The notes: a model not told the origin generated them from the sequence alone. DNA of 56,827 nt from a bacterium (GCA_035505375.1 DATJQV010000081.1:94596-151422), one strand, 5' to 3'; shown: positions 39,082 through 56,114, counted from the stretch's first letter. Translations and numbers: made by a program.

Positions 39082-40161
39082 TCATCCGTTCCGCGGCGGC
39101 TTGGTCCAGGCGCGGTAGCGACCCGCCCCCGGCCATGGCTCGCGTCCTCTCTGAACCGGCGTGGCGCCGAGCAGCAACCTCAATCCGCCCCAGAGTGTGC
39201 CCAGTCCGTACGAGACATGGTAGGCAAGAAACAGCGGCGGCAGAAGAGCCAGGAGCCTGCGGCCGTAACGACCGGACTGCCTAACCGAGGCGAGGATCGC
39301 GAGTGCAAGGTACGGCGCAATTATCACGGCAATAGCTATCCAGCCCGAACGGACAATGACCCCAATGCCGACGACGACGAGGAGACCAAGGACGAAGAGA
39401 CCCGGTATTGCATGCCTCAAGGCAAAGGCATAGGGAGCGACATGCCACATCCACGGGTTCCACTTGCCCGTGGCGAATGCCTGCTCGAACAGGCCGCTGA
39501 GCCTCGCCTGGTTGTAGTATTCGGCCTTTATCGCCGGATTCAGCCAGACCCGCTTGCCCGCTGCCGACAAGCGACGGTTGAACTCATAGTCCTGGTTCCG
39601 TGTAAGGCGCTCGTCGAACAGCCCGACATCATCGAACACGCTCCGGCGGAAGCAGCCGAACGGCACCGTATCGGCCGGGCCCTCTTCTCCGCCGACGCGG
39701 AACCGCGCCCCGCCCACTCCGAAGCCGCTCGTTGAGATCGCCTGCACCAGCCGCGCTCCGTCCGACTCGTCGCGGGTCAGGGTGATACAGACCCCGCCCG
39801 TATTGTCGGCGTCGGTCCGTCTCGCGGTGTCGACGCAGCGGCGCAGATAGTCGGGAGGGTATGTCGAGTGGGCGTCGAGCCGAACCAGCCAGTGACCGCG
39901 CGCGACCCGGATTGCGACGTTCAGCGCCTTAGGCACTATCCTGTCCGGATTGTCGATCAGACGAACCGAAGCGTGACGCCGGGCGAAGTCACCGACTATC
40001 TGCCGAGTCCCGTCCTCGCTCATTCCGTCCACGACGAGAATCTCGACCTGCGCCATCGGGAAGTCCTGGGCCAGCACGCTCGACAGACTCCGTTCGATGA
40101 AACCGACCTCGTTCCGAACCGGCATTGCGACTGACACGAGCAGCGATTCAGCGCTTGCCAC
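39082..40161 (-). CDS. Family 2 glycosyltransferase, ExoA-like
   Basis: The 359-residue protein has an N-terminal GT-A domain (SVAMPVRNEVGFIERSL; EILVVDGMSEDGT; LVRLDAHSTYPPDYL) and FGCFRRSVFDDVGLFDE, then TRNQDYEFNRRL, the acceptor segment. From about residue 255 there are 3-4 membrane helices. It resembles succinoglycan glucosyltransferase ExoA. It should act on the cytoplasmic face, extending the undecaprenyl-linked sugar. GTG start; gap to asnB of 99 bp without visible features. Confidence 0.85.
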   Translation of the reverse strand: MASAESLLVSVAMPVRNEVGFIERSLSSVLAQDFPMAQVEILVVDGMSEDGTRQIVGDFARRHASVRLIDNPDRIVPKALNVAIRVARGHWLVRLDAHSTYPPDYLRRCVDTARRTDADNTGGVCITLTRDESDGARLVQAISTSGFGVGGARFRVGGEEGPADTVPFGCFRRSVFDDVGLFDERLTRNQDYEFNRRLSAAGKRVWLNPAIKAEYYNQARLSGLFEQAFATGKWNPWMWHVAPYAFALRHAIPGLFVLGLLVVVGIGVIVRSGWIAIAVIIAPYLALAILASVRQSGRYGRRLLALLPPLFLAYHVSYGLGTLWGGLRLLLGATPVQRGREPWPGAGRYRAWTKPPRNG

Positions 40162-40260: not shown

Positions 40261-42111
40261 TCAGTTCTTGTAGCCATAGCACTCAAGCCAGGTGTCGAGG
40301 ATCAGCGGACGGAAGACGCTCGCGTCCTTTCTGTCGACGTGCTCCCGGAGTGCCTCTCTGCGCACGTAGGGGTCAATCGCCAGCTGTCTCGAGTCCAGCC
40401 ACACCCGCAGCCGGCCGCCGAGTTGGTCAACCCAGGAGGTGAACGTGCCGCCGAACCCGAGTTTTGTCCGACGTCGCAGGACGACATCCGGAATCAAGTC
40501 CTTGAGCGCAATCCGCATCACCCGCTTGGCCCGTGCCCCGAACAGCTTGTGCTCCAGCGGCAGGCCGACGGCGAGTTCCACCAGCCGATGGTCGAGCAGC
40601 GGCACGCGCGCCTCGATGGAGTGGGCCATCGCGTTCTTGTCGTCGTAGCGGAGCAGTATCGGACAGCTGTACTTCATCAGGTCCATTATCTGCTGGCGTC
40701 TCACGCTGCCCCAGGGCCGGGCGACATCACGCCCGGCATGCTCCTGTCTGAACTCGGGCTGAAGCAGGTGGCTGACCCCGCTGCGGATTGCGGCCGGCAC
40801 ATAGCCGTAGCGGCGCGCATCGACGAGGCTGATGAGGTGCGACCCGCCGTTGAACAGGCCTATCCCGAGCGCGGCCAGCAGGCTGCCGAGTTGGCGCCGT
40901 CGCCACATCTCGAACAGCGAGTAGTAGTAGTACTTGGCGTATCCGCAGAGAATCTCGTCTCCGCCCTGGCCGTTCAGCACTACGCGCAGGCCGGCCCGGT
41001 GGATCGTGCGCATGAGCAGCCACTCGGCGGAGATGGGCGGGCCGCCGAACGGCTCTTCCTGGGACCGCACAACCTGCGGCAGCTCGGTCCAGAAATCGTC
41101 CGGCGTAACCACCAGGGGAACGATGTCCGCGTTGCGGGAACTGGCGACTGCCTCCGCGTATCGCCATTCGTCCATTTGCGGGTCTTCGTACCGGACCGTG
41201 AAAGTGCCCATCCGCCTCGGCGTCATGCCCGACGCGACGCCGACCACGGCCGAGGAGTCCATGCCGCCGCTGAGCAGACATCCGACCGTGACATCGGCAC
41301 GCATCTGCAGCCGAACTGCGTCGGTAATGACGTCCCGGAACCGCTCCACGCTGTCCTGGAGCGAACAGCTCGGCCCGGCCTGTTCGGTCAACTTCCAGTA
41401 CTCCTTGCTGCGGAGTCCGCGCTGGTCGATGGTGAGGACCGAAGCCGCCGGCAGTCGTCTGATCCCCTTGAAGAAGGTATCGTCGGTGTGATCCAGACGG
41501 CCGGCCGCCAGGAAATCATATACCAGTTCGGTCGCGGGATCCGGCCGGCGCGGCAGAACCGCGAGGATACTCCTGATCTCCGAGGCGAAGATGAACTCGC
41601 TGCCGCTGAGGTGATAGTAGAACGGCTTCACGCCGAGCCGGTCTCGCGCGCATACCAACTGGCGGGACCGGGCGTCCCAGACGGCGAACGCGAAGATGCC
41701 GTTCAGCCGCGGCAGGCATCCGGTGCCCCACTCCAGGTAGGAATGCAGCAGGACCTCGGTGTCGCTCGTGGATCTGAACGAGTGGCCCAGCGTCTCGAGT
41801 TCCTGACGCAGTTCCACGTAGTTGTAAATCTCGCCGTTGTATACCAGCGTGCAGCCGCCGTCGCTCATTGGCTGGTGCCCGGCCGATGACAGGTCGATGA
41901 TTGCCAGCCGTCGAGCGGCAAGGCCGAGGTCGGCGTTGTCGCCGTCCTCACTCTGTCGTGCGTGAAGCGGTTGCGAGGCGCCGTTCCGCGACTGGATCAG
42001 GACCGCCCCCGCGTCGTCCGGTCCGCGGTGGCTGATCAACTCGGACATGCGCGTGATTTCGGAGACCGACACGTGGCCCGCCTGCCGCCATATTCCGACG
42101 ATTCCGCACAT
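40261..42111 (-). CDS. asnB: Asparagine synthase (glutamine-hydrolysing) homologue
   Basis: Starting at ATG 42111, Cys2 (MCGIVGIW) becomes the N-terminal nucleophile of the class II glutaminase domain, so starts further upstream are rejected. The ATP-binding synthase domain has LLSGGMDSSAVVG (about 260-272). The 616-residue length is typical. In glycan clusters such enzymes often amidate sugar carboxylates and not aspartate. That role is inference from location among glycosyltransferases. Confidence 0.9.
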   Translation of the reverse strand: MCGIVGIWRQAGHVSVSEITRMSELISHRGPDDAGAVLIQSRNGASQPLHARQSEDGDNADLGLAARRLAIIDLSSAGHQPMSDGGCTLVYNGEIYNYVELRQELETLGHSFRSTSDTEVLLHSYLEWGTGCLPRLNGIFAFAVWDARSRQLVCARDRLGVKPFYYHLSGSEFIFASEIRSILAVLPRRPDPATELVYDFLAAGRLDHTDDTFFKGIRRLPAASVLTIDQRGLRSKEYWKLTEQAGPSCSLQDSVERFRDVITDAVRLQMRADVTVGCLLSGGMDSSAVVGVASGMTPRRMGTFTVRYEDPQMDEWRYAEAVASSRNADIVPLVVTPDDFWTELPQVVRSQEEPFGGPPISAEWLLMRTIHRAGLRVVLNGQGGDEILCGYAKYYYYSLFEMWRRRQLGSLLAALGIGLFNGGSHLISLVDARRYGYVPAAIRSGVSHLLQPEFRQEHAGRDVARPWGSVRRQQIMDLMKYSCPILLRYDDKNAMAHSIEARVPLLDHRLVELAVGLPLEHKLFGARAKRVMRIALKDLIPDVVLRRRTKLGFGGTFTSWVDQLGGRLRVWLDSRQLAIDPYVRREALREHVDRKDASVFRPLILDTWLECYGYKN

Positions 42112-42115
42112 CTGA

Positions 42116-43147
42116 TCAGCCTTCTGCCTCGGCCGCCGGTCTCGATTCATTGCCGCCCGAAGCCACCCGGGCGTACAGGTCGATCAGCCGCTGCGTGGTC
42201 GCACCCAGCGACACCTCTCGCAGATGCTCCGAACCATTTGAGCGCAACCCGAGACTCAGTACCTCGGCGAGGGCCGCGCCGAGGTTTGCCGGCGACCGAT
42301 CAGTGACGCGTGATGGCACGACCGGCTCCAGCCGCTCGGCGACGTCGCCCACGTTGGTTGATACAACCGGCACGTTGCAGGCCATGGCTTCCTGCACAAT
42401 CGTCGGCGAGCCCTCCCAGTCGCTCGCAACCAGCACGCAGTCCGAGGCGTTGATGTACAGCGGCATCTGTTCGGGCGCGACCTCGCCGCTCAGGACGAGC
42501 AGCCGGATCGGCCCGATTGCCGCGCTCGCGACCTTCACTGCCGCTTCGGCGGTCTTCAATCCCTTGTTTGCCGGATCGTTACCGACATTGAGTAGCGCGA
42601 CCTTCTCGAACATGTCCCAGCCCAGAGCTCGACGGGCCTCGTCCTTGGGCTGGGGACGGAACACGTCGGCATCGACTGCCGAAGGAATGACTTCCGCTGC
42701 GTTCCGTCGCCACCACAGCCGGTCCTTGAGTTCCTGGCTGACGCACACGGTCCGACTGGCCCTAAGGGCCGAGAGTTGCGACAGAAGGTGGCCGAAATGC
42801 AACCTGATGAAACCGACGCCCGAGTCGGGATTGAGATCGCTCCCGCGGAATGTTACGACCAGCTTTCGGCCAGGTAGTGCCGCACAAAGTGCGGACGTCA
42901 TCGTCCCATACTGGGCGTGAACGATATCAGGCCTCAACCTCCCTACCTCCCGCCGGTAGCGCAGGGCCTCAGCCGCGAATACCGGCAGAGAAACCCATGG
43001 CCGCAGGTAGAATCGTATCAGATCGATGTTCGCCCGCTCAAGAGCGTCAGCCTGCCGCTTGGAGAAAATGCTTCCCGAACCCTCCTCAGAGTCCGGTATC
43101 ACGAACAGGACGCGCAGTCGGCGCGAGCCTTCGGTCGGCAACGTCAT
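42116..43147 (-). CDS. Family 4 glycosyltransferase
   Basis: From ATG 43147 the product has 343 residues. The acceptor domain reads RVLFVIPDSEEGSGSIF and HAQYGTMTSALCAALPG. The donor domain has ALLNVGNDPANKGLKTAEAA and SPTIVQEAMACNVPVVSTNV with the conserved Glu. The frame continues upstream to 43264, but the extra residues are not family-like. It follows the next GT4 by 31 bp and ends 4 bp from asnB. Product linkage unknown. Confidence 0.85.
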   Translation of the reverse strand: MTLPTEGSRRLRVLFVIPDSEEGSGSIFSKRQADALERANIDLIRFYLRPWVSLPVFAAEALRYRREVGRLRPDIVHAQYGTMTSALCAALPGRKLVVTFRGSDLNPDSGVGFIRLHFGHLLSQLSALRASRTVCVSQELKDRLWWRRNAAEVIPSAVDADVFRPQPKDEARRALGWDMFEKVALLNVGNDPANKGLKTAEAAVKVASAAIGPIRLLVLSGEVAPEQMPLYINASDCVLVASDWEGSPTIVQEAMACNVPVVSTNVGDVAERLEPVVPSRVTDRSPANLGAALAEVLSLGLRSNGSEHLREVSLGATTQRLIDLYARVASGGNESRPAAEAEG

Positions 43148-43178
43148 GCCTCGGTTGGACCGTGCGGGCGCGAGTGCG

Positions 43179-44348
43179 TCAATACCCCGGTGTCCTGGAT
43201 TCGCGGACCACGCGTGACAAGCGAGGATCGGCGCAGGGCCAATGGTCAATCCGGACCTGTTCATGTGCTGCCGCGGCCTCGAGGACGCGCAGGTAGCGAT
43301 TGGCCACGATCCCGACGTCGAAGAGTGCCTCTGCTCTGGCCCGGCTCACCCGCCCCATGCGATTCTGATCCTCCGGTGTCAGGGCGGCGAACTTCGCGAT
43401 CGCGTCCGCGATTGCCTTCGGTGAGTACGGATCGAAGAGAAACCCGTTGACGCCATCCTCGACCAGATTGCTTGCATCGCATACCGCACTCATCAGGATG
43501 GGCTTTCCCAGCATCATTCCTTCACACACTGAATTGGGAAGTCCCTCGTAGAAGGATGGCAGCACAACGGCGTCCGCATCGGCCACAATGTCATGGATGT
43601 TACTGACGGGAGCGTGCAGACGAAAAGCTCCCTCAAGCCCGAGGTCGATGATTCCCTGCTGCGCCGCTTGTGCCGCTCGGCGGTCCACGGTCTGGTCACC
43701 ATACCAGTCCACCTGCACGCGGATTCCGGGAGCCGAATCATGGAGAGTCTTGAGCGCCGACAGCAGGCCTCGAGCATTCTTGTTTTGGTCGAGGCGCGCG
43801 GCGACGATCAGCTTGGTCCCGCGCCGGTTATCCGCGTCAACGCGGGCGGCGGCGGAACGCGAGACGTTCACGGCGTTATATATGGTGATCAACTTCGGCC
43901 TCAGTCTGGGCAACCTCTCCTCAATCGGGACCCTGGCCGAGTGCGAGTTCGTTATCACATAATCCGCGAGGGTGTGTAGATACGCCTTGAACCGCGACTG
44001 ATTGCGGTTGCCGGCCGAACGCTCGGAGACCACCAGCCCCCAAGTCCGGTTCGGCAGAGCCGCCATTTCGGCGTACGCGGACGGGCCGTCCAGAAACGCA
44101 AGCACCACGTCCTGTCCGTAATTCCTGAGGAACCTGCGCACGCCCAGAGCCCACATGACCTTGCCATGTCCACCGATTGAATGGTGTCCAACGCCTTCGC
44201 GCTCCAGCAAAGCCCGATAGAAATCGCCAGCGGCGTACGTCGCCACGCACACGCTATGACCCCGTCGCTTGAACTCACCGGCGAGTGTGCAGACCTGCCT
44301 CTCCGCTCCGCCGCTCCCCAGACTCTCGGTGAGAAGGGCGATCCTCAT
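43179..44348 (-). CDS. Family 4 glycosyltransferase
   Basis: From ATG 44348, overlapping the stop of the upstream O-antigen ligase by one base (TGATG), the product has 389 residues. It starts MRIALLTESLGSGGAERQV, the classic GT4 opening, with LIVAARLDQNKNARGLLSAL and LPSFYEGLPNSVCEGMMLGK in the donor domain. The 168 residues that the open frame adds upstream run antisense-like through the ligase and are rejected. It resembles WbnE/N-acetylgalactosamine transferase-type enzymes in general layout. Confidence 0.88.
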   Translation of the reverse strand: MRIALLTESLGSGGAERQVCTLAGEFKRRGHSVCVATYAAGDFYRALLEREGVGHHSIGGHGKVMWALGVRRFLRNYGQDVVLAFLDGPSAYAEMAALPNRTWGLVVSERSAGNRNQSRFKAYLHTLADYVITNSHSARVPIEERLPRLRPKLITIYNAVNVSRSAAARVDADNRRGTKLIVAARLDQNKNARGLLSALKTLHDSAPGIRVQVDWYGDQTVDRRAAQAAQQGIIDLGLEGAFRLHAPVSNIHDIVADADAVVLPSFYEGLPNSVCEGMMLGKPILMSAVCDASNLVEDGVNGFLFDPYSPKAIADAIAKFAALTPEDQNRMGRVSRARAEALFDVGIVANRYLRVLEAAAAHEQVRIDHWPCADPRLSRVVRESRTPGY

Positions 44349-45565
44349 CAGACCTGGACGCGAGTCATGCTCCGCCCGGGTAGCGGCCGGCGTGGCCGCA
44401 CGGCGGCGCGCTGGGGCGGTTCCAGTAGTCGCACGTAGGCGTTCATCAATCCCAGTTCTACCCAGAGCATTTTCGAGTACTCCATCCCTCCGCCCTTGAG
44501 CCAGTTGACGAGGTAGCCGGCGAAGCTTGCCAGCAGTACCGCGGCAAACAAGGCGGCTTCCTTCGAAATCCCCCGCCTTGCCGTCGCCGCCAGGGCCCGC
44601 AGCAGTCGCACAACGGAGTAGGCAATGAAGCCAAGGTAAAGTGCCAGTCCCGGCAGCCCCAACTCGATGCCGATGGCCAGCGGCGCGTTGTGGACTTCGG
44701 TCCCGCCCGCGCCTCCACGGACCATCCTCAGCGCATCCTGATTGGTGCCCAGACCGTAGCCTGTGAACGGACGCTGCTCGATGGCCCGCATCCCGGCCGG
44801 CCACAGCTCCTTCGTGCGGACGTCTCCTCCCTGCGACTGTGTCTCCTGCCATCTCTCCCAGAATGCCAGCGGCGCCGCGCGCAGCACGAGTATCACGACG
44901 AGAGCGGCGAGCACCAGGGCGCGGCCCCTCGTCCGCCGGTAGGCAAGCAGAACCAGGAAGAAGACCGCGATCGAGATGATTCCGCCTCGGGACTGCGTGT
45001 AGATGGCAGTGACTCCCGCGACAGCGAGCGCTCCTACCGTGATCGCTCTGCGCAGCGGGAATCGGGTCCGCGAGAGAAACCAGTAGCCGGATGGTATGCA
45101 GGCGACCAGCAGCGCCACGTAGCCATTCGGGTTGCCCGTGACCCCACCGACCCGATACGTCTCACCCTGCTGTCGAATGCCAGCCATGTCCAAGACCCCG
45201 CTGACCAGCAGCACGAGCACTCCCAGCCAGAGAGCGATCATGCCTACCGACAGCTGCTTCTCCCCTTGTATCACGTTCACGATCAGGAAGTACGAAACAA
45301 ACAGGAGCAGGTAGGTCGGGATTGACCCCATTGACAGAGCCGGGTCTACGCTCCACAGCACTGAGACCATGCCCCACGCTACGAATAGGGCCATCAGAGT
45401 CATGCTGCGGTCCCATCGGATCGGGTCAAACGAGCGCACGCGCGTGATCACCCACACCCCGAACGCGAGTGCACCGACCCACTTCAGCACCGTGATTCCC
45501 TGCACACTGAGCTGGTCCAGCGGCAGCGCCGCGAGGTAGATACCCAGAACGTAGGACTCAATCAT
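44348..45565 (-). CDS. O-antigen ligase/polymerase family membrane protein
   Basis: The 405-residue integral membrane protein has about 10-12 helices and a large periplasmic loop. In it ELWPAGMRAIEQRPFTGYG with following LGTNQD and HNAPLAIGIELGLPGLALYL forms the Wzy_C/WaaL signature. It either polymerises the repeat unit or ligates the polymer to its final acceptor. It overlaps the genes on both sides (1 bp and 4 bp). A basic C-terminal tail rich in Arg follows the last helix. Confidence 0.85.
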   Translation of the reverse strand: MIESYVLGIYLAALPLDQLSVQGITVLKWVGALAFGVWVITRVRSFDPIRWDRSMTLMALFVAWGMVSVLWSVDPALSMGSIPTYLLLFVSYFLIVNVIQGEKQLSVGMIALWLGVLVLLVSGVLDMAGIRQQGETYRVGGVTGNPNGYVALLVACIPSGYWFLSRTRFPLRRAITVGALAVAGVTAIYTQSRGGIISIAVFFLVLLAYRRTRGRALVLAALVVILVLRAAPLAFWERWQETQSQGGDVRTKELWPAGMRAIEQRPFTGYGLGTNQDALRMVRGGAGGTEVHNAPLAIGIELGLPGLALYLGFIAYSVVRLLRALAATARRGISKEAALFAAVLLASFAGYLVNWLKGGGMEYSKMLWVELGLMNAYVRLLEPPQRAAVRPRRPLPGRSMTRVQV

Positions 45566-46803
45566 CGCTCTTGACTGCTCCGGTTGAGCCCGCGGCGCCG
45601 CAGGCGATCAACATCAGGTTGCTGCGTGGCCGCCCGGTGCCGAGCCACAGTAGTGAAACCGATCGTGCGCCAGATGGGTCGAGTATTGGGAGTGGTGTCG
45701 GCATCGTGTTCATAAGTGTCGAGCAGCTTGCCGATGTGCACGTTGGCGTCGAATGCCTCGCGCGCAAATGCAGCCGCGCGGTTGCTCATTAGTTCGCGCG
45801 TCGCGTCGTCGCAAAGCAGACGCTCTGCTGCTTCTGCCAGCCGCTCCCCGGTGGGCCGGTCTACAAGAATGCCGGTCTCTCCGTCCAAGACAGCTTCGTC
45901 AACGCCGCCGATGTTAGGTCCGACGGTCGGAACCCCGAGCGCCGCGGCTTCGACTATCATCAGCGGCAGCCCTTCCGAGCGAGACCCCACGACCTGGAGG
46001 CAGGACCGCTTCATGAGTGCCGGGACATCGTTCCGCTGCCCGAGAAAGAGCACACGGTCGGCAAGGCCGGCGTTCCTCACGAGGGCCTTCGCCATGGGCA
46101 TGTCCGGCCCGTCCGCGCCGACCAGCCACCAGACGACATCGGGCATTCTCCGTAGGACGCTTATCGCCGCCTCGGTGACGGTCACCATTCCTTTGACCGG
46201 CTGGAACTGAGCCACGGATATGACCCGTCGCAGCCGCGGGTCTCCGAAGCCTTCAGGAATCGGATCGGAGCACTGGTCCGAGGCCGCCCGGATACCTTCG
46301 AGGTCGAGCCCGAGATACAACGTGGCTATCCGGACGGGATTCACACCGGCAAGTATGCTGTCGCGTCGGACCCGCTCCGATACCGCGAACAGCCGGTGGG
46401 CAAATACCTCATGGAGCTTGCAGACCAGCCTGATGCGAGGAGTGATCTTGCGGTCGATACCGGAGTGAAAGGTGGCGTAGACCAGACTCTTGCCGAGTAC
46501 CCGCAGCGCCGGAAGCATGAGCGGGTTGATGAAGTGCGCGTGAACAACCGACGGTCGCCATTCCCTGAGAAGTACGGCCACGGTACGTGTTGACCGGACC
46601 GGCGCCTCCCAGGAATTGCCGGATTCCATGTATCTGGCCCCGGCGCCTTCAAGCGATTCATGGTATTCTCGCACGGTATTCGGGACATCGTGCATCACCG
46701 TCAATTCGTGGCCGCGGCGCTGGCACTCACGGGCGAGCAGGATAGTATACCGTTCGAAACCGCCAAGCTTGTTGCCGACTCTTACCCAGTGGAGGATGCG
46801 CAC
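45562..46803 (-). CDS. Family 4 glycosyltransferase
   Basis: The start GTG 46803 comes two bases after the stop of the deacetylase gene; the frame is open to 46854. The 413-residue product has RVGNKLGGFERYTILLAREC, VHAHFINPLMLPAL and ISVAQFQPVKGMVTVTEA. GSRSEGLPLMIVEAAALGVP is the donor-site Glu motif. It ends with a ~45-residue Arg-rich tail after the GT-B fold. Part of the glycan operon, with a 4-bp overlap into the ligase gene. Confidence 0.87.
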   Translation of the reverse strand: MRILHWVRVGNKLGGFERYTILLARECQRRGHELTVMHDVPNTVREYHESLEGAGARYMESGNSWEAPVRSTRTVAVLLREWRPSVVHAHFINPLMLPALRVLGKSLVYATFHSGIDRKITPRIRLVCKLHEVFAHRLFAVSERVRRDSILAGVNPVRIATLYLGLDLEGIRAASDQCSDPIPEGFGDPRLRRVISVAQFQPVKGMVTVTEAAISVLRRMPDVVWWLVGADGPDMPMAKALVRNAGLADRVLFLGQRNDVPALMKRSCLQVVGSRSEGLPLMIVEAAALGVPTVGPNIGGVDEAVLDGETGILVDRPTGERLAEAAERLLCDDATRELMSNRAAAFAREAFDANVHIGKLLDTYEHDADTTPNTRPIWRTIGFTTVARHRAATQQPDVDRLRRRGLNRSSQER

Positions 46804-46805
46804 GT

Positions 46806-48380
46806 TCAGCCCCTGGTTGACAGGCTTTCGTACAGGGCGGACACGGCAACGCACCGGTAGCCGGCTGAAAGTGCTGCGCCCATGACCCGGTAGACATCCA
46901 GTCTGGCTTCTCTCAGGAACAGCGCAACGGCCCGGCCGAACCCGACTCCATTAACGGCGATGACAAAGGCAGCTACCGCCCGCCTGTAGGCCGGCGTGCT
47001 AGCGCTGTCCATCGCGAGCACGAGACGACGCAGCCTGCCGCTCTGCGGCAGGCCGGCAGCCATGCCACGGATTACCCAGCCCAGCCGGTCGCGGTCTACG
47101 TCGCTATGCTGCATGAAGTGGATGGGAATTCCCGCGACGGCATAACAGCGCCAGAAATCGGGATTCGTGAAATTGAGCAGGCTGGCTCCGGGGCGAAAGG
47201 TCTCGGCGAGACTCGGCCTTTGCGTCTCCGGGTCGGTCGCCCCGATCGGCGGACAGTCTCCGGATTCGACGTGCTGCGTGGAATCGATGGAAATGGCGGC
47301 GTGCTTTGCGGCCGCGGGCTTGGTGACGCCCTGACGGTATGCCCAGGCCGGTGCGACAAAGAAACGCGGCGCAAGGCCGAAGGCCCGCTCGATTTCGCCT
47401 TTGCTGGCGGCAATGTGATCCTCGGTCGCGCGCTCGTCCAGGTCGATGAACTCGCGGTGGTCGGACTCAGCTTCTGGCCGTCGGTCACCGGGATGTCGCA
47501 GGTGGACCATCCCGTGCGACCCGATCTCGAATGAACCCTCAGCCTGCCCTTTCTTCAACTCGGCAACCGAACAGGGCATGCGGTCGGCAATGCGCCCGAA
47601 CCCGTCCGCGGTAGGGAAGTGCGTCGAATATGCGAAGCTCATGACCACGCCTCGCTCATTCGCGAAGCGCCGCAGACGTCCGATTGTCGCGGCGCGAGCG
47701 TGGTCGAGCTCGTCGACCCGCGACGCGCTGATGACTTCATGTGCTGTGGCAGGAAGGTCGTCGAATCGGAACGCCGCAAGTGGTGACGCCGGCATAGTCT
47801 CCAGCCCAGCGCGTTGGCTTAGCCACGCCTTGAGCAGAGGATAGAGGTAGGGCATCACCGGACTCCCGAGCTGCCACGGAGAGACCCCCATGAAGAGATG
47901 CGGCCGTCTTTCTACAATTACAGGCAGTCCGTCGGCGCTGACCAGAACGTGCCCGTTCTTCGCGATCTCGTCCAGATAGACGAAATCAGGTCTCGGTCCG
48001 AGGTAGGCAATCCTCTTTGGTAGTCCGCTGGCCAATGTGCTATCGGATGTAAGCGTTAGAACCACGCGGCATTCGGCGGAGCACCCATCGCGCCGGATGC
48101 CCCGGCTCTGGCCTTCGGCAATCGGGCGCTCCTCCTTCGAGTCGCCCGGCGCGATGAAAACGACGCCGGGTACAGTTTCGTGCAGCCGCGACCAGAGTCG
48201 GTCGCTCTCTACTCCGCCGTCAGCCGCAGCGGTGCTGAACGCCACGGGCGTGACGTCTGGTGAGATTGAACCGTCTGGTAAGTATCGCACTGGAGTACGC
48301 CAGAGTACACATAACTGCCGCCACATCAACTCATGGCGCCACCAGAATGAGCCGACGTCCGCTTCCCGCGTCGCGACCAC
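46806..48380 (-). CDS. Polysaccharide deacetylase-like protein
   Basis: The 524-residue protein (GTG 48380; TTG 48383 also possible) has a NodB-like core in its second half: FRFDDLPATA (acid pair of motif 1), EIGSHGMVHLRHPGD (motif 2 histidines) and RFFVAPAWAYRQ (motif 3). The first ~220 residues contain PGVVFIAPGDSKEE and may be a separate nucleotide- or sugar-binding part. It may deacetylate GlcNAc- or peptidoglycan-like glycans. No clear signal peptide, so cytoplasmic action on lipid-linked sugar is possible. It starts 4 bases after the GNAT gene stop. Confidence 0.7.
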   Translation of the reverse strand: MVATREADVGSFWWRHELMWRQLCVLWRTPVRYLPDGSISPDVTPVAFSTAAADGGVESDRLWSRLHETVPGVVFIAPGDSKEERPIAEGQSRGIRRDGCSAECRVVLTLTSDSTLASGLPKRIAYLGPRPDFVYLDEIAKNGHVLVSADGLPVIVERRPHLFMGVSPWQLGSPVMPYLYPLLKAWLSQRAGLETMPASPLAAFRFDDLPATAHEVISASRVDELDHARAATIGRLRRFANERGVVMSFAYSTHFPTADGFGRIADRMPCSVAELKKGQAEGSFEIGSHGMVHLRHPGDRRPEAESDHREFIDLDERATEDHIAASKGEIERAFGLAPRFFVAPAWAYRQGVTKPAAAKHAAISIDSTQHVESGDCPPIGATDPETQRPSLAETFRPGASLLNFTNPDFWRCYAVAGIPIHFMQHSDVDRDRLGWVIRGMAAGLPQSGRLRRLVLAMDSASTPAYRRAVAAFVIAVNGVGFGRAVALFLREARLDVYRVMGAALSAGYRCVAVSALYESLSTRG

Positions 48381-48384
48381 CAAG

Positions 48385-49533
48385 CTATCGATTAGCGTCC
48401 TCCTTGCGCAGCCTGAGGTAACTGGCTCGCAGGAAGGAGTTGCTCCTGGCACTCTCCATCAGCGACGCGAGCGCCTGACTGAGCCAGCGGTCGAAGCTGC
48501 TCCGATACACCAGAAACTGGAGGTTGGTGCGAGCCACTCCGCCAAGCCACTGCTTGTAGGCCTCTCCACCACGCGACAGGTCGCACTCGCGCAAGCCCTG
48601 TCGGATCGCATGCTGAATGGCATACAGGAATGTCACCTTGCCGATGCTCAGTTTGGGCGCGATATTCGGATTGTATCCTGTCCTCAGCAGAAGCCAGGTG
48701 GAGCCCGAGACCCCTCCGAAGACGAACGCCGCTGGCTTGTTGTCCAACCAGAGGACGATTGATAGGAAGCTTCCGGATGACGCCAGCCCGCGCATGCAGG
48801 AACGTTCGAAATCACGCATCGCGCTGCGCCAGTAGTTGCTGCCGTCGCCCCAACGTGCGCGGTCAACCGACTCGATGGCTGACAGGCACTGTTCACCTGC
48901 GTCCGTATAGACCGCGAACTTCAAGTCATGCTGCTGCTGGAGCCGCCGCAGGTCGTCGCGGGCATGATGTCTGGTCCATTTGCCGAGCCCGGCCAGGTAT
49001 TCCTCCGGCGTCTGCGGGAGGCTTATGGCGAACGCCTCGGTTGTGACAAGCTCTGAGAATCTGGCATTCCGATCCGACCGTACGAGTTGGAGCACGCGCC
49101 CGGTCCAGCTCGACTCAGGCACGTTGGTGAACGCAACCAGCGGAACCCGAACCAGTCGTTGTTTCAGAAACTCCCCGATGGCGCGCGCTCCGACCGACTC
49201 GGGCACACCCGGCTGGACCAGCAGCAGGTGATTGTCCGCCTGGTCGTCGCCGACAAAGGCAACCTTGGGCAAGCCACTGCGCTTGTCGCGCACCTGATAG
49301 AAGACGCCCATCAGGACGGGCTCCGGCTCCCCGACCGTCAGGAGAAACGTCCTGGCACGCCTTGTGAGGTATCGCCAGTGATTGTATTGCCAGTCCCATG
49401 TCTGGAACAGAGTTGCGCCCGGCGATTGCGCCCAGAGCGCGCGCCAGGTCGTGCGCAGACGTTCGTCTCTCCACGCATCGTCATCCCGCAGCAAAGAAAC
49501 GCGCGGCTCCAGCTCAGCCGCGCTTGGGTTCAT
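48385..49533 (-). CDS. GNAT (BcsL/CelD- and FemAB-like) acyltransferase
   Basis: ATG 49533 overlaps the ATP-grasp stop as ATGA; ATG 49539 is also possible. The 382-residue protein has SPGATLFQTWDWQYNHWRYL and LGKWTRHHARDDLRRLQQ. A C-terminal GNAT half contains LSIVLWLDNKPAAFVFGG, then GYNPNIAPKLSIGKVTFLYA and ECDLSRGGEAYKQWL. This architecture occurs in proteins that attach acyl or aminoacyl groups to polysaccharides or lipid intermediates. Next to an ATP-grasp ligase it may decorate the glycan with an amino acid or acyl group. The donor is unknown. Confidence 0.78.
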   Translation of the reverse strand: MNPSAAELEPRVSLLRDDDAWRDERLRTTWRALWAQSPGATLFQTWDWQYNHWRYLTRRARTFLLTVGEPEPVLMGVFYQVRDKRSGLPKVAFVGDDQADNHLLLVQPGVPESVGARAIGEFLKQRLVRVPLVAFTNVPESSWTGRVLQLVRSDRNARFSELVTTEAFAISLPQTPEEYLAGLGKWTRHHARDDLRRLQQQHDLKFAVYTDAGEQCLSAIESVDRARWGDGSNYWRSAMRDFERSCMRGLASSGSFLSIVLWLDNKPAAFVFGGVSGSTWLLLRTGYNPNIAPKLSIGKVTFLYAIQHAIRQGLRECDLSRGGEAYKQWLGGVARTNLQFLVYRSSFDRWLSQALASLMESARSNSFLRASYLRLRKEDANR

Positions 49534-50579
49534 GGCCATATGCCCCTCAGCAGATCCTCGATAATAGCGTCCTGAGGGTACATGTGTCCGTCGTGCCATC
49601 CCAGCGCCCTGTCCCAGTGCCCGGGGCAGTCGTATATCGAGTATATCGGCGCTGCATAGCTGATCTCGACTATCAAAGGCTGCCGTTCCATCCCGAACAG
49701 GAAGTCGTAGTTCAGCGCCTGCGCGCCGATCCTGTCGTTGACATCAAAGGCAATTCGCACACAGTCGAGGTCTACGCGTTCCGGGCTGGTGTCGTTGTGG
49801 CCGCTGCCCGAGGCGCGGAAGTCGCCCTCCCGCACGATCCGTATTGACCCGAACGCCCTGTCCCCGATTACCGTAACGCGAGTATCGAACTTGTTGTCGG
49901 GGATGAAGTCCTGGAAATAGGCGTAGCCCCTTTCCTTCTGCATCATACGGTTGATGTGGGCGATATTTCGGATCGACCTTGGCGCCCGGCGTAAGATTCC
50001 AAGCAGGTGGCTGGCCTGCCCACCCGCTTCACCTTCCTGCGCGTGGAGCGCGAGCTTCGCTTGCCAGTCACTGAAGTGCGATGCCACCGGGTCAAAACCG
50101 CTCCCGAAGGCTCTGGCAGCAAGTTTGCGTGCTTCGCGTGCCGTGCGGACGAGGCGCACATTGCTCGACGACGCCCCTCTTCTCAGTTTGAAGACCTTGG
50201 GGAAGGACGTATCCTCGATCCAGGCCAGCGCGCTTTCGAGGTCGTAGAACGCGTAGCTCGGTACCAGTGGGGCTCCCACGGCTTCAAGCAGATACTTCTG
50301 GCCGACCTTGTCGTCAAAGTGCCAGCACGTGGCGGAGTTGGGGAAAACCAACAGTCCGCCTGCTTCCAGCGCCTGCGTCACCTGCCGTGCGATGAGGATG
50401 GCCCGGGGGTCAGTGTGATCCCAGTGCCAGGCGAATGCCCTGAGTCCCTGAGCCTGCTTCACCAGGTCCGGCCGGAACGGATCCACGGCCCGGTAGGGAA
50501 TCCCTCTCTCTTGGCAGTACTCCACCCAGCGGTCGCTGTAGCTGCCGCGCCGGACGTGGAGGCCCAGGCGCTGGCTCAA
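49530..50579 (-). CDS. ATP-grasp ligase (RimK-like)
   Basis: The TTG start at 50579 overlaps the CapA stop as TTGA and is preceded by GGGGGAG. The 349-residue product has a pre-ATP-grasp part ending near LLVFPNSATCWHFDDK. It then has PKVFKLRRGASSSNVRLV (nucleotide-binding loop), YFQDFIPDNKFDTRV and VTVIGDRAFG, and ALNYDFLFGMERQPLIVEIS, the metal-binding acids. RimK-type enzymes make amide bonds between amino acids and carboxylates. Joined to CapA and GNAT genes, it may add an amino acid to the polysaccharide. Substrate unproven. Confidence 0.75.
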   Translation of the reverse strand: MSQRLGLHVRRGSYSDRWVEYCQERGIPYRAVDPFRPDLVKQAQGLRAFAWHWDHTDPRAILIARQVTQALEAGGLLVFPNSATCWHFDDKVGQKYLLEAVGAPLVPSYAFYDLESALAWIEDTSFPKVFKLRRGASSSNVRLVRTAREARKLAARAFGSGFDPVASHFSDWQAKLALHAQEGEAGGQASHLLGILRRAPRSIRNIAHINRMMQKERGYAYFQDFIPDNKFDTRVTVIGDRAFGSIRIVREGDFRASGSGHNDTSPERVDLDCVRIAFDVNDRIGAQALNYDFLFGMERQPLIVEISYAAPIYSIYDCPGHWDRALGWHDGHMYPQDAIIEDLLRGIWP

Positions 50580-51727
50580 GACTCCCCCTCTTGATGATCG
50601 GTCCGGCCCGGCGCTGTCCGAAGAGCGAAGATCAGTCCTCTTCGTGTCGGAACTCTCGGTCGTGTCAACAGGTCGGCGCACGCCGCCCTCCAACGGCTGC
50701 TGCGAACCGAGTTCTCATGCCTTCTTGCGTACTCGTCGCCGATAGGGACGCGCAGTTCCCGGCGTTTCGAGGCGACCCCGTGTCCCTTGAGCAGACCGCG
50801 GCGGAAGACCGCTGTACGAACATGCCATTCCCGGCTCGCGGGGTGCCAATCGACGAGAAGAGACTCTCGGTTCCACTTGTGCTGCCTCATTTCGCACCAG
50901 TGCTGCGGGTGACCGGCGTCGTCGAAGCTGTCCGGAATCCGGAGCCGATCAGGCATCACCAGATTGCCGAGCCCGTAGAAGACCGGCGTCTTGTCTATGA
51001 CTTCCCACGACTGGATACAGTGGCTGTGGTGCCCGACTATGAGGTCGGCCCCGGCCCTGACGTAGGCAATCGACTTGAGGCGGTCTTGTGGGGTTGGAAG
51101 CGGAACTTCTTCCTGCCCCCAGTGCAGGCAGAGCACTACCCTGGCAGCCCCATCGAGTTTCGCCTGCTGGATGTCGTGCTCAATAAGCCCATCGTCCATG
51201 AGGGACGGCGAGTTTTCAGCACCCACGGCGGGGTTAGTCGATCGGCAGACATAGCCCAGCAGTGCCACGTCAAGTCCGGCACACTTGATCCGTGCGGGCC
51301 GTTCGGATCGGGCTCCCGTTCTCCCCAGCCCGAAAACCTGGATGCCCCTCTTCTGCAGAACGCCAAGGGTGTCCTTCAGGCCGGCTTCTCCGTAGTCCAT
51401 GATGTGGTTGTTTGCGAGTGAAACGGCTGCGGGGAGCGAGCCGAGACTCTCCTCAAGAACGAACTCCTCAATCTTCAGATTGATCTTCCCCGACGTTCCG
51501 GCTTGCGCTTTGGTCACCGGGCCCTCGAGGTTGCAGACCCATGGCGGCGACAGCGGCAGTTCGCTCCGAAATACTTCCGGCGCATGCAGATCACCGGCAA
51601 AGGTGATGCAATCCTGGTTCACACCCAGCTGGCCGCTCACGACGGGCCAACGACGGAAACACGTCTCTCTTTGCCTGGCATCGGCACTGCGCGCGGTCCG
51701 CACAAGTACTTTGACTCTGAAGTGCAC
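50576..51727 (-). CDS. CapA family protein (poly-gamma-glutamate synthesis-type)
   Basis: The 383-residue protein has a calcineurin-like metallophosphatase fold: FAGDLHAPEVF (near 42-52), CNLEGPVT, AVSLANNHIMDYGEAGL, CLHWGQEEVPLPTP and GADLIVGHHSHCIQSWEV, then YGLGNLV. These are the CapA/PgsA motifs. It lacks an obvious membrane anchor, unlike Bacillus PgsA; the first ~38 residues are basic and non-family. Start GTG 51727 may be further downstream. The next genes are the ATP-grasp and GNAT proteins, together an apparent amino-acid or acyl decorating module. Confidence 0.85.
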   Translation of the reverse strand: MHFRVKVLVRTARSADARQRETCFRRWPVVSGQLGVNQDCITFAGDLHAPEVFRSELPLSPPWVCNLEGPVTKAQAGTSGKINLKIEEFVLEESLGSLPAAVSLANNHIMDYGEAGLKDTLGVLQKRGIQVFGLGRTGARSERPARIKCAGLDVALLGYVCRSTNPAVGAENSPSLMDDGLIEHDIQQAKLDGAARVVLCLHWGQEEVPLPTPQDRLKSIAYVRAGADLIVGHHSHCIQSWEVIDKTPVFYGLGNLVMPDRLRIPDSFDDAGHPQHWCEMRQHKWNRESLLVDWHPASREWHVRTAVFRRGLLKGHGVASKRRELRVPIGDEYARRHENSVRSSRWRAACADLLTRPRVPTRRGLIFALRTAPGRTDHQEGES

Positions 51728-51746: not shown

Positions 51747-52907
51747 CTACACTCGGCTCGCCAGTTCAGTCAAACCCAGGTCTTGGCACATTAGCATGAT
51801 CATCTCTTTTCTGTAGTTATCGGGCGAGCCTCTGGCAACGTGGCGTTGCAGAACCGCCAGTGTTTCACGCTGGTCCGCGATAGTTGTTGCCAAGAGTGCG
51901 GCCGCCTTTTCAGCAAGTTCCTTCTCGCTCTTGAACCTCAGTTTGTCGATGGGTACGATCTCGCGCTGGCCGCCCGAGTCATGCACCAACGGAAGCAGAC
52001 CGGCCTGTATCGCTTCCACCGTTACGATTCCGAAGTGCTCCCAGCGCGCCGGGAAGACAAACACCAGGTGCGAATCGAACAGACGACCGATCATGTCATC
52101 GGTCGGGTCCTCCACGACGGTAAGATTCCTCAGCGCCAGCTCCGCGGCGAGGCGCCTGATTCTGTCGGGCTCCTTTGAAGAACCGATTGTCGCGCCCGCC
52201 ACCGTTACGGGTACATCCGGGAAGCGTTGCGCCAGCCCGAGCATCACTTCCGGGTTCTTGTAGCCCTCAAGACGGGAGAGAAACAGAAAACCCGCTCGGC
52301 GCGGCCCTGGACCGCTGCCCGGGCGGGTTCGCTCCCTGACCGGTGGCCAGATTACCGGCAATCTGCTGCCATAGGTGTGAAGGAAGCGGTCGGCTATCCA
52401 CTCTGCGATGGCGACGTAGCGCGAATTGGGATCAGGATGCAGGCGCGGCGAGATCAACCTCACGGCGCAGTTCTTGAGCGACCATCTGGCACGACCGTCA
52501 TCTTCAGTACTTAACGGGTCAGGCAACTGGAGATAGGCCGGACCGGTCAGCCAGCAGACATTAGGCGTGGAGGCCGGCATGCGTATGCCTGCCTGAAAGC
52601 AGTAGATGAAATCGTAGCGCTCAAGATTTAGTCTCGCGAAGCGAACGCTGAAGCGAAAAGCCGGGTCCTGCAGCCATGCAGGAAGACTCCGAACCGTCCT
52701 TGAGCCAATAGGCAGACTGCCACCACCGAAGGTCGTGTCGAGGACGGGGCTGCCGATTGCCTGCCAGTCAGTTGGCTCATCCCATGCGATCTCGGGCGTT
52801 ATTCCTACTCGATTCAGACCTGCGACCAGTTCGATAAAGCAGGTCTGAACACCGCCGGGACAGGTGAAACGATCGACAACCACGCCGACCCGCGGACTAG
52901 CGCTCAT
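51747..52907 (-). CDS. Family 4 glycosyltransferase
   Basis: The 386-residue protein begins VGVVVDRFTCPGGVQTCFIE. The donor domain has RRAGFLFLSRLEGYKNPEVM and FVFPARWEHFGIVTVEAIQA with the conserved Glu. It overlaps the upstream GT4 by 4 bp (ATGA) and leaves 19 bp before capA. The C-terminus is a helix without extra domains. Linkage and donor unknown. Confidence 0.87.
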   Translation of the reverse strand: MSASPRVGVVVDRFTCPGGVQTCFIELVAGLNRVGITPEIAWDEPTDWQAIGSPVLDTTFGGGSLPIGSRTVRSLPAWLQDPAFRFSVRFARLNLERYDFIYCFQAGIRMPASTPNVCWLTGPAYLQLPDPLSTEDDGRARWSLKNCAVRLISPRLHPDPNSRYVAIAEWIADRFLHTYGSRLPVIWPPVRERTRPGSGPGPRRAGFLFLSRLEGYKNPEVMLGLAQRFPDVPVTVAGATIGSSKEPDRIRRLAAELALRNLTVVEDPTDDMIGRLFDSHLVFVFPARWEHFGIVTVEAIQAGLLPLVHDSGGQREIVPIDKLRFKSEKELAEKAAALLATTIADQRETLAVLQRHVARGSPDNYRKEMIMLMCQDLGLTELASRV

Positions 52908-54049
52908 TCACTTCTCACCATCTCTTCGTACATCGCCACGTTCTCGTCCGTCGTCTTGTCCAGGGAGAACTTGAGTTCCACCTTCTGTCGAGCCCGCTTT
53001 CCGAGACCGCTTCTCAAACCAGGCGACGACAGTGCCTCCGACATCGTACTCGCCAGAACCGCAGGATCGCGCGTATCGCAGAGCAGTCCATCCACGCGGT
53101 CCGCTATCACCTCGGGACCGACTCCATCTCTCATGAACACGACTGGGGCTCCACAGGCCATGGCCTCCAGGACCGCGATCGGATGGCCCTCCGCTCTCGA
53201 GGGAAATACGCACAGACCGGCACGTCTGAACTCCTCGGGCATCCTCTCCCTCGCTACTTCACCGGCGAAGTCCACACGCGACCTGAGCGACGATGGAATC
53301 ATGGACATGTACTTCTCGGACGGAGGCGGGAGGCCCGACTCCGCGCGATTCGCACCCACACACCTTAGTCTGGCGGCGGGATGTTGGCGCATGACGGCCG
53401 GGATGGCAGCGAACAGGGTGTCGAGGCCCTTGCGGTCGTTCAGTTGGCCTACGTAGAGGATGAGGTCGGCGTCGGCCCGGGTGTTGGTCGGAGTGAATAC
53501 CGATGTGTCTACTCCGTTGTAGACTACCCGGTAATCAAGGTCATTCAGCCCAACCGTGTCAAGCGTCATCCGCGCGACCCAGTCACTGACCCCCACGCGG
53601 AGGTCCGCGATCCTAAGGAGTCTTCGGACAAAGAAGTCACCGACCGGCTCCGGGCGTAACCCCATCATCCTCAAACGAACCGACCCGTTCTGGTGCATGC
53701 GCACAATCAGCGGACAGCCGAACCGCTTTGACCACAGCAGCCCGCTTTCATCACAGCATTCCACAACGTCCAGCCGTTCCTTCCGGACAGCCCGCTCGAC
53801 TGTTTGCAGATACTGGAACCTGTGCGTGAGCAGACGCGGCTTGATCGTCGACTCGGCGAAGCGGTACACCGGAATGTCTCCGACGCGGTCCGGTTCCGCG
53901 CCGTGCCACGCGGCAGCCGCAGCGGTAATGACGACCGCATGGTGGCCAAGTTGCTGCAGCCGTTCGACGAGAGTTCGGACGAACACCTCGATACCGCTCA
54001 CGGCACCCTCCGGAGGGAAGAAACGAGTGCAGACAAAACCTATCCGCAT
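52904..54049 (-). CDS. Family 4 glycosyltransferase
   Basis: The 381-residue GT-B protein opens RIGFVCTRFFPPEGAVSGIE. It continues LVERLQQLGHHAVVITAAAA and, in the donor domain, LILYVGQLNDRKGLDTLFAA and VFPSRAEGHPIAVLEAMACG. The ATG start at 54049 overlaps the next upstream gene by 10 bp. It is one of the canonical chain-extension enzymes of the operon. Confidence 0.88.
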   Translation of the reverse strand: MRIGFVCTRFFPPEGAVSGIEVFVRTLVERLQQLGHHAVVITAAAAAWHGAEPDRVGDIPVYRFAESTIKPRLLTHRFQYLQTVERAVRKERLDVVECCDESGLLWSKRFGCPLIVRMHQNGSVRLRMMGLRPEPVGDFFVRRLLRIADLRVGVSDWVARMTLDTVGLNDLDYRVVYNGVDTSVFTPTNTRADADLILYVGQLNDRKGLDTLFAAIPAVMRQHPAARLRCVGANRAESGLPPPSEKYMSMIPSSLRSRVDFAGEVARERMPEEFRRAGLCVFPSRAEGHPIAVLEAMACGAPVVFMRDGVGPEVIADRVDGLLCDTRDPAVLASTMSEALSSPGLRSGLGKRARQKVELKFSLDKTTDENVAMYEEMVRSE

Positions 54050-55104
54050 ATTGATTCGTACGCGGAGGCCATTTGAGGCACGATCCTGCTCCAGTCGTAG
54101 CTCAGCGCTCGTTCCCTCAAGCCCTGTCTCGGGCGCTGGGAGTTCTCTTCGACCAGACTGCAGAGAAGTTCAGCGACGTCCTCAGCGGATGAAGTCCGGG
54201 CGTAGTAGGTACCGTTCTCGCCAAGGTATTCCACTGTGGCAGGAAGGTCCGGGGCGACAATCGAGGTCCCGCAGCTCAGTGCTTCAAGCAGAGCGTTGTT
54301 CGCGACCGTCCCGAGCAGCGGGAGTAACATTACGGCGCATGAGGAGTACTCCCGCCTCAATTCCTCATCGTTGAGATGCGACATGATTTGGACCCTGGAC
54401 GAGACGCCTGCCAGTTGGGTTGCGTTGTTCCCGAAGACTCGCACCGTGACGCTCGGGTCAATGGCCACGGCATGTCTGGCGACATCGCGTGCGAAATCCA
54501 TGTCACGGAGCCACCCGGCGGATATGAGGATCGTGTTCCCTCTGGAGAATCCCCGGCTATTGAAGAAATCAGTGTCGACTCCATGGGGCACGAATACACA
54601 CTGCTTGTCAGGGACCACACTCTGCACGAAAGCTGACTGCTCCGAGCTCAGCGCAACGATCAGGTCCACATTGCGCAACCGGTGTCTCAACCACTGCACT
54701 CTTCGGCTGTCCCGACCCAGGAAGGAAGCGGGCTGGTGCAGAGTGGTGACAATTCGGCAAGATCCCGGGAACCTTGGGATGGGAAGGTCGTTCTCGCCAT
54801 AGAGCACGTGCAATACCCGGACGTGGCCGAAAGAAGCGGCGGCCCCCAGCATGCACTTCGTCAGCGCCCGGGCAACTGCGACGAGTCGGGCTTCCACCGG
54901 CCCGGCCCAAGCGGGCCCGACCAACTCGCCGGAACCAGGCAGGATCGTGGTTCGCTGGTTGCCGGGCCATCTGGCCGCGAGCAGCCAATAGCCCGTATGT
55001 TCGCCGTGATGCCCGAAGCGGCGCGAAACGAACCGAACCATGGCCGCGCCCTTCGCCCGTCGTCCCTCGTCCCTCATCCGGAATCGCCATTCGCCATTCG
55101 TCAT
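54040..55104 (-). CDS. Family 4 glycosyltransferase with repeat-derived N-terminus
   Basis: The GT-B fold starts at MVRFVSRRFGHHGEHTGYWL (ATG 55041). The donor half has TILISAGWLRDMDFARDVAR and LPLLGTVANNALLEALSCGT. Upstream of 55041 the frame continues 21 codons to ATG 55104, which overlaps the GT2 stop as ATGA. Those codons (MTNGEWRFRMRDEGRRAKGAA is too long to be a family segment) are encoded by iterated-word DNA (CGAATGGCGAATGGCG, GGGACGAGGGACGACGGG). Either start is possible. If 55104 is used, the repeat is translated as an extra N-terminal tail. Confidence 0.82.
   Translation of the reverse strand: MTNGEWRFRMRDEGRRAKGAAMVRFVSRRFGHHGEHTGYWLLAARWPGNQRTTILPGSGELVGPAWAGPVEARLVAVARALTKCMLGAAASFGHVRVLHVLYGENDLPIPRFPGSCRIVTTLHQPASFLGRDSRRVQWLRHRLRNVDLIVALSSEQSAFVQSVVPDKQCVFVPHGVDTDFFNSRGFSRGNTILISAGWLRDMDFARDVARHAVAIDPSVTVRVFGNNATQLAGVSSRVQIMSHLNDEELRREYSSCAVMLLPLLGTVANNALLEALSCGTSIVAPDLPATVEYLGENGTYYARTSSAEDVAELLCSLVEENSQRPRQGLRERALSYDWSRIVPQMASAYESICG
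55050..55104. repeat. Iterated-word segment at the GT4 N-terminus
   Basis: GTCGTCCCTCGTCCCTCATC and CGCCATTCGCCATTCGTCAT. The same words are found at 22188-22236, 18945-18979 and 31196-31216. Confidence 0.68.
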
Positions 55105-56114
55105 GTGAGCCAGTCGTCCTTGAGCGTGAGCTGACGCAAGCTAGGGTCACGAAGCAGTCCCCAGCAGCACCTCATCCGGCCGATGCGGTAATGTATCTTC
55201 GCATGACTAATGCGCCAGGTATCTCTGATAAGCAGCATCCGAAGGACGCTCTGAGAACCGGCTTGGACCATGCCGACGAGCTGTTCGGCCATCCCGAGCG
55301 CAAGACGGAAGGAACCAGGCTCCTGAGCCTTGTACCAGCCATAGCATTCAAAGCTGCCCTGGTGGGCCATTCTCCCGTTCAGGTAGGTCTGCGTCAGCCT
55401 CGAAGCGGGAATCACATGGTAGGTCTTGGCCTGCCTGACGTAGGCGAACTTGTAGCCAAGTTCCTTGACTCTCATGTTTAGACCTACTTCGTTGTTACCT
55501 AACGTTTCATCTCCCACGATGTCGGGTCTGAAACCGCCGCTCCGGAAGAAAACGTCCCGCAACACGCCCATGTGGCCGCTGTACACGCCTACGTCATCCT
55601 CCGAGATCACGACTGTCTCGGGTCTCATCTGCAATCCCATGATACTGCCTGGGCAATGCTGGGCCAACCACCGAGGCGGTTCCGTCTCCCACTTCGGCAA
55701 TATGCTTCCAGTCGCCGAACCTACGTCCTGGAACACGTCAAAGACGGGCACGAGATTGGCGAGCAGTCCCGGGTCCGCAATCATGTCGTCATCCGTGAAG
55801 TACAACAACTGACCGGATGCGTGCCTGGCCCCTGTATTCCGAGCGAAGTGAGCTCCCGGTCTATCCTCATAGACGTACTTGACCGGTAGCTTGGCCTGCG
55901 CCTGACAGACTTGCACGACTTCCTTCGTTCCGTCGGTCGAGCAATTGTCGACAACGATGATCTCCAGTCGGTCGGACGGGTAGTCCTGGTTGAGCAGGCT
56001 GTCCAGAGTAGTCTTGAGCGACTGGGCACGATTGTAGGTCGGAATGATGACCGACACTGACTTCGGCTCCCAATGGACGGTGTTCTGCCACAGGGCGCGA
56101 ACCTCGCCGCTCAT
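55101..56114 (-). CDS. Family 2 glycosyltransferase
   Basis: The 337-residue GT-A protein has SVSVIIPTYNRAQSLKTTLD, LEIIVVDNCSTDGTKE and the metal-binding YFTDDDMIADPGLL. Residues RPDIVGDETLGNNEVGLNMR form the acceptor or catalytic-base region (ED-like). The C-terminal part is amphipathic. It overlaps the gene upstream by 4 bp and the one downstream by 4 bp, showing tight coupling. Confidence 0.88.
   Translation of the reverse strand: MSGEVRALWQNTVHWEPKSVSVIIPTYNRAQSLKTTLDSLLNQDYPSDRLEIIVVDNCSTDGTKEVVQVCQAQAKLPVKYVYEDRPGAHFARNTGARHASGQLLYFTDDDMIADPGLLANLVPVFDVFQDVGSATGSILPKWETEPPRWLAQHCPGSIMGLQMRPETVVISEDDVGVYSGHMGVLRDVFFRSGGFRPDIVGDETLGNNEVGLNMRVKELGYKFAYVRQAKTYHVIPASRLTQTYLNGRMAHQGSFECYGWYKAQEPGSFRLALGMAEQLVGMVQAGSQSVLRMLLIRDTWRISHAKIHYRIGRMRCCWGLLRDPSLRQLTLKDDWLT

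Follow-up and report, generated by a model that had tools for sequence, protein, structure and literature searches.

What does a CapA-family protein do in a glycan operon, and which of the adjoining genes work with it? Apart from those of poly-glutamate capsules, most CapA-family genes are, to our knowledge, still without an assigned reaction. We addressed this question in a bacterial DNA stretch of 56,827 nucleotides (GCA_035505375.1 DATJQV010000081.1:94596-151422), the whole of which is referred to below as the window. Its minus strand carries a long glycan operon for a Wzy-type exopolysaccharide, and all genes studied here lie on this strand. A CapA gene (50576..51727) is followed by the gene of a RimK-like ATP-grasp amide ligase (49530..50579), a GNAT gene and a putative deacetylase gene. 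An earlier note on this DNA had described these genes with their coordinates and two 4-bp junctions, all of which proved accurate; its CapA, RimK-like and FemAB/CelD-like labels are borne out by scores over the cut-offs of PF09587, PF08443 and PF13480. It had also taken the first three genes as a unit. We find that the conserved unit is the CapA–ATP-grasp pair within glycan operons, and that the likely role of this pair is to decorate a coat sugar with an amine or an amino-acid-like group.

Conservation of the CapA–ATP-grasp pair

Relatives of the ATP-grasp ligase were collected by a pattern-seeded scan of 84,980 genomes, which favours closer relatives. Neighbouring genes were called from stop-to-stop reading frames and purpose-built profiles, and many loci are incomplete because of contig ends. 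The scan returned 53 loci with relatives at 35–55% identity in about 16 phyla, including Bacteroidota, Planctomycetota, Nitrospirota, Pseudomonadota, Myxococcota and Campylobacterota, and most of these loci lie among glycosyltransferase, Wzx or Wzy genes. CapA was found in 21 loci, in 15 of which it stands directly upstream of the ATP-grasp gene on the same strand. Random positioning of CapA within the gene set of each locus would give 3.1 such cases, and none of 200,000 simulations reached 15. The 15 adjacent loci span seven named phyla, or nine if one intervening gene is allowed (L022, L060). In the window the CapA stop and the ATP-grasp start overlap by 4 bp (TTGA, 50576..50579, minus strand), and the same −4 bp junction occurs in nine other loci (L021, L032, L038, L040, L045, L046, L047, L048 and L052). 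A similar operon with the order GT4–CapA–ATP-grasp–GT4, where GT4 stands for a family 4 glycosyltransferase, is present in G106, a single-contig genome of the same family as the window genome. On the ATP-grasp tree, the presence of CapA changes 17 times over 63 rows and clusters no more than shuffled labels do; the CapA partner is therefore gained and lost often. In the open-access PubMed Central (PMC) text searched, no paper describing the pair came to light.

A second type of gene can occupy the place of CapA. Directly upstream of ATP-grasp, six loci without CapA carry a gene for a DUF362-type protein of about 450 amino acids (PF04015; Pfam-confirmed in five), with a −4 junction in two of them. 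Loci with a DUF362 protein upstream of ATP-grasp in the place of CapA are L014, L015, L024, L026, L044, L051 and L128, and the same-genus genome G115 has the order DUF362–Wzx–ATP-grasp. DUF362 is thereby indicated as an alternative ATP-grasp partner, which suggests a function for DUF362 in glycan operons. CapA and DUF362 occur together in none of the 53 loci (hypergeometric p about 0.02, with loci truncated), and this mutual exclusion is suggestive only.

Two further arrangements of ATP-grasp genes were observed. Tandem ATP-grasp genes of the window family are present in L038, L040, L045, L050 and L053, as if two groups were ligated successively, and CapA stands in front in four of these five loci. 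A second, diverged ATP-grasp subfamily occurs in the same family of genomes (L005, L130 in G114, L131 in G117 and L126 in G106).

Active sites and proposed reaction of the pair

The ATP-grasp protein has 349 amino acids and begins at a TTG that is preceded by a good ribosome-binding site, AGAGGGGGAG. It scores 31.3 bits against PF08443 (cut-off 21), and 30 of the 36 family members match this model. In a comparison of folds the AlphaFold model (predicted local distance difference test, pLDDT, 89.8) lies nearest to ArgX/LysX (4e-15) and RimK (3e-13), followed by Ddl. LysX/ArgX, RimK and Ddl activate a carboxylate and then join it to an amine. Residues K91, K131, R234, R247 and R250, the DFRASG motif, D292 and E305, which include the Mg ligands, do not vary among 36 sequences. 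The amide-forming ATP-grasp of the earlier note is supported, as is a GNAT with an aminoacyl-transferase fold, and the CapA partner that the note placed beside the ATP-grasp enzyme recurs with it across phyla.

The longest CapA frame starts at a GTG and encodes 383 amino acids. Since relatives align only from about residue 41 onwards, the start may be a later GTG near 51620-51640 (e.g. 51640 or 51622). The protein belongs to the PGA_cap family of calcineurin-fold metalloenzymes, with 161 bits against a cut-off of 27 for PF09587, and it is the single PF09587 protein encoded in the 3.6 Mb genome of the window. It carries the motif set of this family (D / E / NH..D / H / HxH): D46, E68, N106, H108, D111, H202, H234 and H236 are invariant in 22 relatives, and N107 is nearly so.

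The best-matching solved relative of CapA is MslH, a peptide C-alpha epimerase. A profile alignment of the two proteins, which reproduced the published numbering of His259, His261, Pro294 and His295 of MslH, placed Q205 of CapA at the Ca ligand His261 and H234 at Gly293. MslH has lost the second metal, and the metallophosphoesterase site of YmdB includes Asp8, Asn67, His68, Asp71, His150 and His177 (PMC10406935). CapA matches this site with D46, N107, H108, D111, H202 and H236, together with E68 and H234, in an alignment made through MslH and not directly. As far as such an alignment can tell, CapA keeps the residue set of a dinuclear metallophosphoesterase. Because these metal residues are complete and include H234, which MslH is without, a phosphatase is the favoured assignment. 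An identity as a single-metal epimerase of the MslH type was rejected on the two substitutions and on a score of 48.4 bits against the equivalog cut-off of 700.

From these features we propose the following scheme. The ATP-grasp ligase would convert a carboxylate to an acyl-phosphate and couple this with an amine. The acceptor would be a Wzy-type glycan repeat or a nucleotide- or lipid-linked precursor, and the product would carry an amide-linked amino acid or amine. CapA, presumably made in step with the ligase, would process the substituent, its most likely job being to dephosphorylate the group, whether already ligated or still incoming. A comparable sequence is known from the Campylobacter capsule: a phosphorylated amine is first coupled to glucuronic acid as an amide by an ATP-grasp domain, and its phosphate is later stripped off by a phosphatase (PMC11800379, PMC13276843). 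Ligation followed by dephosphorylation would be the most likely course because of this precedent and of the predicted dinuclear phosphoesterase site of CapA. We regard it as an evenly balanced proposition that the pair amidates the glycan repeat and that CapA processes the substituent.

The nearest functional hints for CapA and DUF362, namely MslH and the LarA clan, keep a different scheme in play, in which CapA, or DUF362 in its stead, acts as a racemase or epimerase on the amino or hydroxy acid that ATP-grasp attaches, so that the substituent has the D configuration. DUF362 belongs to the same Pfam clan, CL0471, as the LarA hydroxy-acid racemases (PMC11770544), and its occurrence in CapA's place, with the −4 junctions, its position near ATP-grasp in G115 and the lack of co-occurrence with CapA, fits such a scheme, as does the kinship of CapA with an epimerase. 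However, the substitution of His261 by Gln205, the invariance of H234 and the low equivalog score of CapA argue against it, and DUF362 is itself an uncharacterised family. We consider this scheme unlikely, although it is the best of the alternatives. Its narrower form, in which CapA and DUF362 are interchangeable proteins of unrelated folds that perform the same stereochemistry-setting step on the acyl group fixed to the glycan by ATP-grasp, seems distinctly improbable.

Several points weigh against amidation by the ligase with phosphate removal by CapA. The LarA clan of DUF362 fits an epimerase better than a phosphatase. On the ATP-grasp tree, 33 of 63 rows have no adjoining CapA or DUF362, and ATP-grasp can therefore work without CapA. 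The ligase stays below the curated NCBIfam cut-offs of RimK (TIGR00768, 63.7 against 143.4) and LysX (43.4 against 275.6), so that its subfamily is unnamed in NCBIfam. None of the 36 ATP-grasp members matched the TupA-like family, to which the Campylobacter enzyme Cj1438C belongs, at an E-value of 0.001. No carboxylated or amino sugar could be assigned to the ligase as a substrate, and UDP-glucose dehydrogenase, a sign of uronic acids, is present in all eight genomes tested and hence uninformative.

Neighbouring genes and the surrounding operon

Downstream of the pair lies the gene of a tandem-GNAT protein of 382 amino acids (48385..49533, minus strand; Acetyltransf_6, PF13480, CelD/FemAB-like). 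Its ATG start has a GAGGGG nine bases upstream and overlaps the ATP-grasp stop by 4 bp (ATGA, 49530..49533, minus strand), a junction that was not found in relatives. The protein scores 73.9 bits against PF13480 (cut-off 22), and its AlphaFold model (pLDDT 76) was matched by Foldseek to 2hqy, Sbb17 (2e-11), FemX (2e-10) and MprF/A-PGS, in agreement with a tandem GNAT fold; tandem GNATs that use acyl-CoA also match the model. An iterated profile built from 36 GNAT sequences and seeded by PF13480 hits detected no GNAT adjoining ATP-grasp in the 53 loci. In a Pfam scan of the 33 unassigned genes lying up to two places downstream of ATP-grasp, PF13480 was absent from the matches listed (25 of the 41 matched families), and one Polysacc_deac_1 protein was present. 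Single-sequence phmmer searches of the loci for relatives of the GNAT and the deacetylase-like protein returned the window copy only. The best relative of the GNAT in the phylum has 28% identity. In the same-genus genome G114, the diverged ATP-grasp subfamily has a weakly QueC-like protein on one side and is followed by a GNAT on the other; ATP-grasp and GNAT can therefore meet, though not as the triplet of the window.

The deacetylase-like protein (46806..48380, minus strand; about 524 amino acids) resembles NodB and DUF2334 proteins. The distance of four bases to the GNAT gene given in the earlier note holds if the start is the GTG at 48380, and shrinks to one base with the TTG at 48383, while the family assignment falls short of the cut-offs both for DUF2334 (25.1 against 26 bits) and for Polysacc_deac_1 (PF01522, 19.8 against 23.1 bits). 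Its FRFDDL and SHGMVH motifs (D-D, HxxxH) are visible nevertheless. We found no relative of this protein in the 146 other genomes of the phylum.

These data bear on a four-gene pathway, in which the deacetylase frees an amino group, the ATP-grasp ligase and the FemAB-like GNAT then add amino acids, and CapA assists. The genes are adjacent and co-directional with 4-bp junctions, the GNAT fold is closest to aminoacyl-tRNA-dependent transferases, and both the GNAT after another ATP-grasp subfamily in G114 and the single Polysacc_deac_1 protein among the downstream genes are consistent with such a pathway. However, the triplet of CapA, ATP-grasp and GNAT is not conserved elsewhere, no GNAT being detected next to ATP-grasp in the 53 loci. 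The earlier note's own measure, which was conservation of the triplet in other genomes, thus refutes the triplet as a unit and leaves the CapA–ATP-grasp pair in its stead. Nor do the 4-bp overlaps alone mark a module, as had been suggested, because exact overlaps of this length are found operon-wide (6 of 16 junctions); a tally of RTGA in the window does not serve as a check on such overlaps. The proposed order of deacetylation before acylation finds no support, and gene order does not give the order of reactions. The deacetylase-like protein has neither a score over cut-off nor a relative in the phylum. The four-gene pathway is very doubtful, and the GNAT and deacetylase-like genes look like local neighbours, that is, lineage-specific extra decorators outside the conserved pair.

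The least probable reading is that the pair serves to make or export a polyamide akin to poly-gamma-glutamate, the RimK-like ligase standing in for CapB/CapC: CapA family membership and the addition of glutamate or aminoadipate by RimK and LysX relatives agree with it, but just two of the 12 genomes tested have CapC (PF14102), and in most loci the pair is surrounded by glycosyltransferase, Wzx and Wzy genes. A poly-gamma-glutamate synthase (CapBCA) was rejected, as CapC is missing from the window genome.

The rest of the operon, all on the minus strand, confirmed the glycan setting named in the earlier note. Upstream of CapA, Pfam matches identified four glycosyltransferases (three of family 4, GT4, and one of family 2, GT2; 51747..56114). 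Downstream of the deacetylase-like gene follow a GT4 (45562-46854), a Wzy/O-antigen-ligase-like polymerase (44348-45565; Pfam match, PEP_O_lig_1 weak), two further GT4 (43179-44387 and 42116-43264), an AsnB-like glutamine amidotransferase (40261-42150), a GT2 (39082-40161), the initiating sugar-phosphate transferase Bac_transf (38398-39027) and a DegT aminotransferase (37138-38364). Up to three enzymes of the operon, ATP-grasp, GNAT and the AsnB-like protein, could form amide or acyl links. AsnB-like genes are also present in the ATP-grasp loci L012, L015-L018 and L023, perhaps for a second amide on the same glycan. Just to the right of the window, a run of pseudaminic-acid-type sugar genes (L124:2320-10312, G000:C81) shares the operon's strand and encodes NeuB with SAF, a fused PseG-like/GNAT protein, a CMP-sugar cytidylyltransferase, DegT and a Polysacc_synt_2 dehydratase; genes for a Wzt/Wzm exporter come next. 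Near the Wzt/Wzm genes lies a membrane-bound O-acyltransferase gene (MBOAT, L124:15329-16810), a further possible glycan decorator.

Implications and comparison with known systems

The CapA family scores over its PF09587 cut-off in 92 of 147 genomes of the phylum, and the conserved, adjacent and phylum-spanning partnership with an amide ligase gives some of these genes an assignment that is concrete and can be tested. It predicts amide-substituted polysaccharides in, for example, Nitrosomonas, Chitinophagaceae, Prevotella and Planctomycetota. If instead CapA and DUF362 set stereochemistry, this would amount to a widespread, undescribed route by which bacterial polysaccharides acquire D-amino or D-hydroxy acids, and both DUF362 and the CapA proteins of glycan operons would gain a function.

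Among the known systems, MslH, the lasso-peptide epimerase, shares the PF09587 calcineurin fold with CapA, and its dyads His88/Asp91 and His295/Asp11 correspond to H108/D111 and H236/D46 (PMC10406935). It differs in holding one Ca through His261, where the window protein has Gln205 and keeps H234, and no genes for ribosomally synthesized and post-translationally modified peptides were recognised near the window CapA. The GNAT is predicted by its model to share its fold with the aminoacyl-tRNA-dependent tandem GNATs FemX, Sbb17 and MprF, whereas identity to these is only 10–16% and tRNA dependence of the window protein is a prediction from fold. RimK, LysX, ArgX and MptN are the closest fold and sequence relatives of the ligase, with the DFR motif and the Mg/ATP residues in common; the window enzyme differs by its glycan-operon setting and by scores under every curated cut-off.

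Two further systems come from surface-polysaccharide loci. In Campylobacter jejuni, Cj1438C joins glucuronic acid to serinol phosphate and Cj1435 dephosphorylates the product, which likewise combines an ATP-grasp enzyme with a phosphatase to form a sugar amide (PMC11800379, PMC13276843). Cj1438C is a TupA-like enzyme with a fused glycosyltransferase, whereas the window ligase stands alone and resembles RimK and LysX, and a CapA-family protein is the candidate phosphatase here. The DUF4910 (CA_C2195)/ATP-grasp operons also contain a free-standing ATP-grasp aminoacyl ligase within a surface-polysaccharide operon and are predicted to give amide-modified sugars, but the partner is DUF4910 and CapA lies outside that proposal (PMC4000134). 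The CapA–ATP-grasp pair can be placed beside these systems as a variant of ATP-grasp glycan amidation that is new as far as the open-access papers searched extend.

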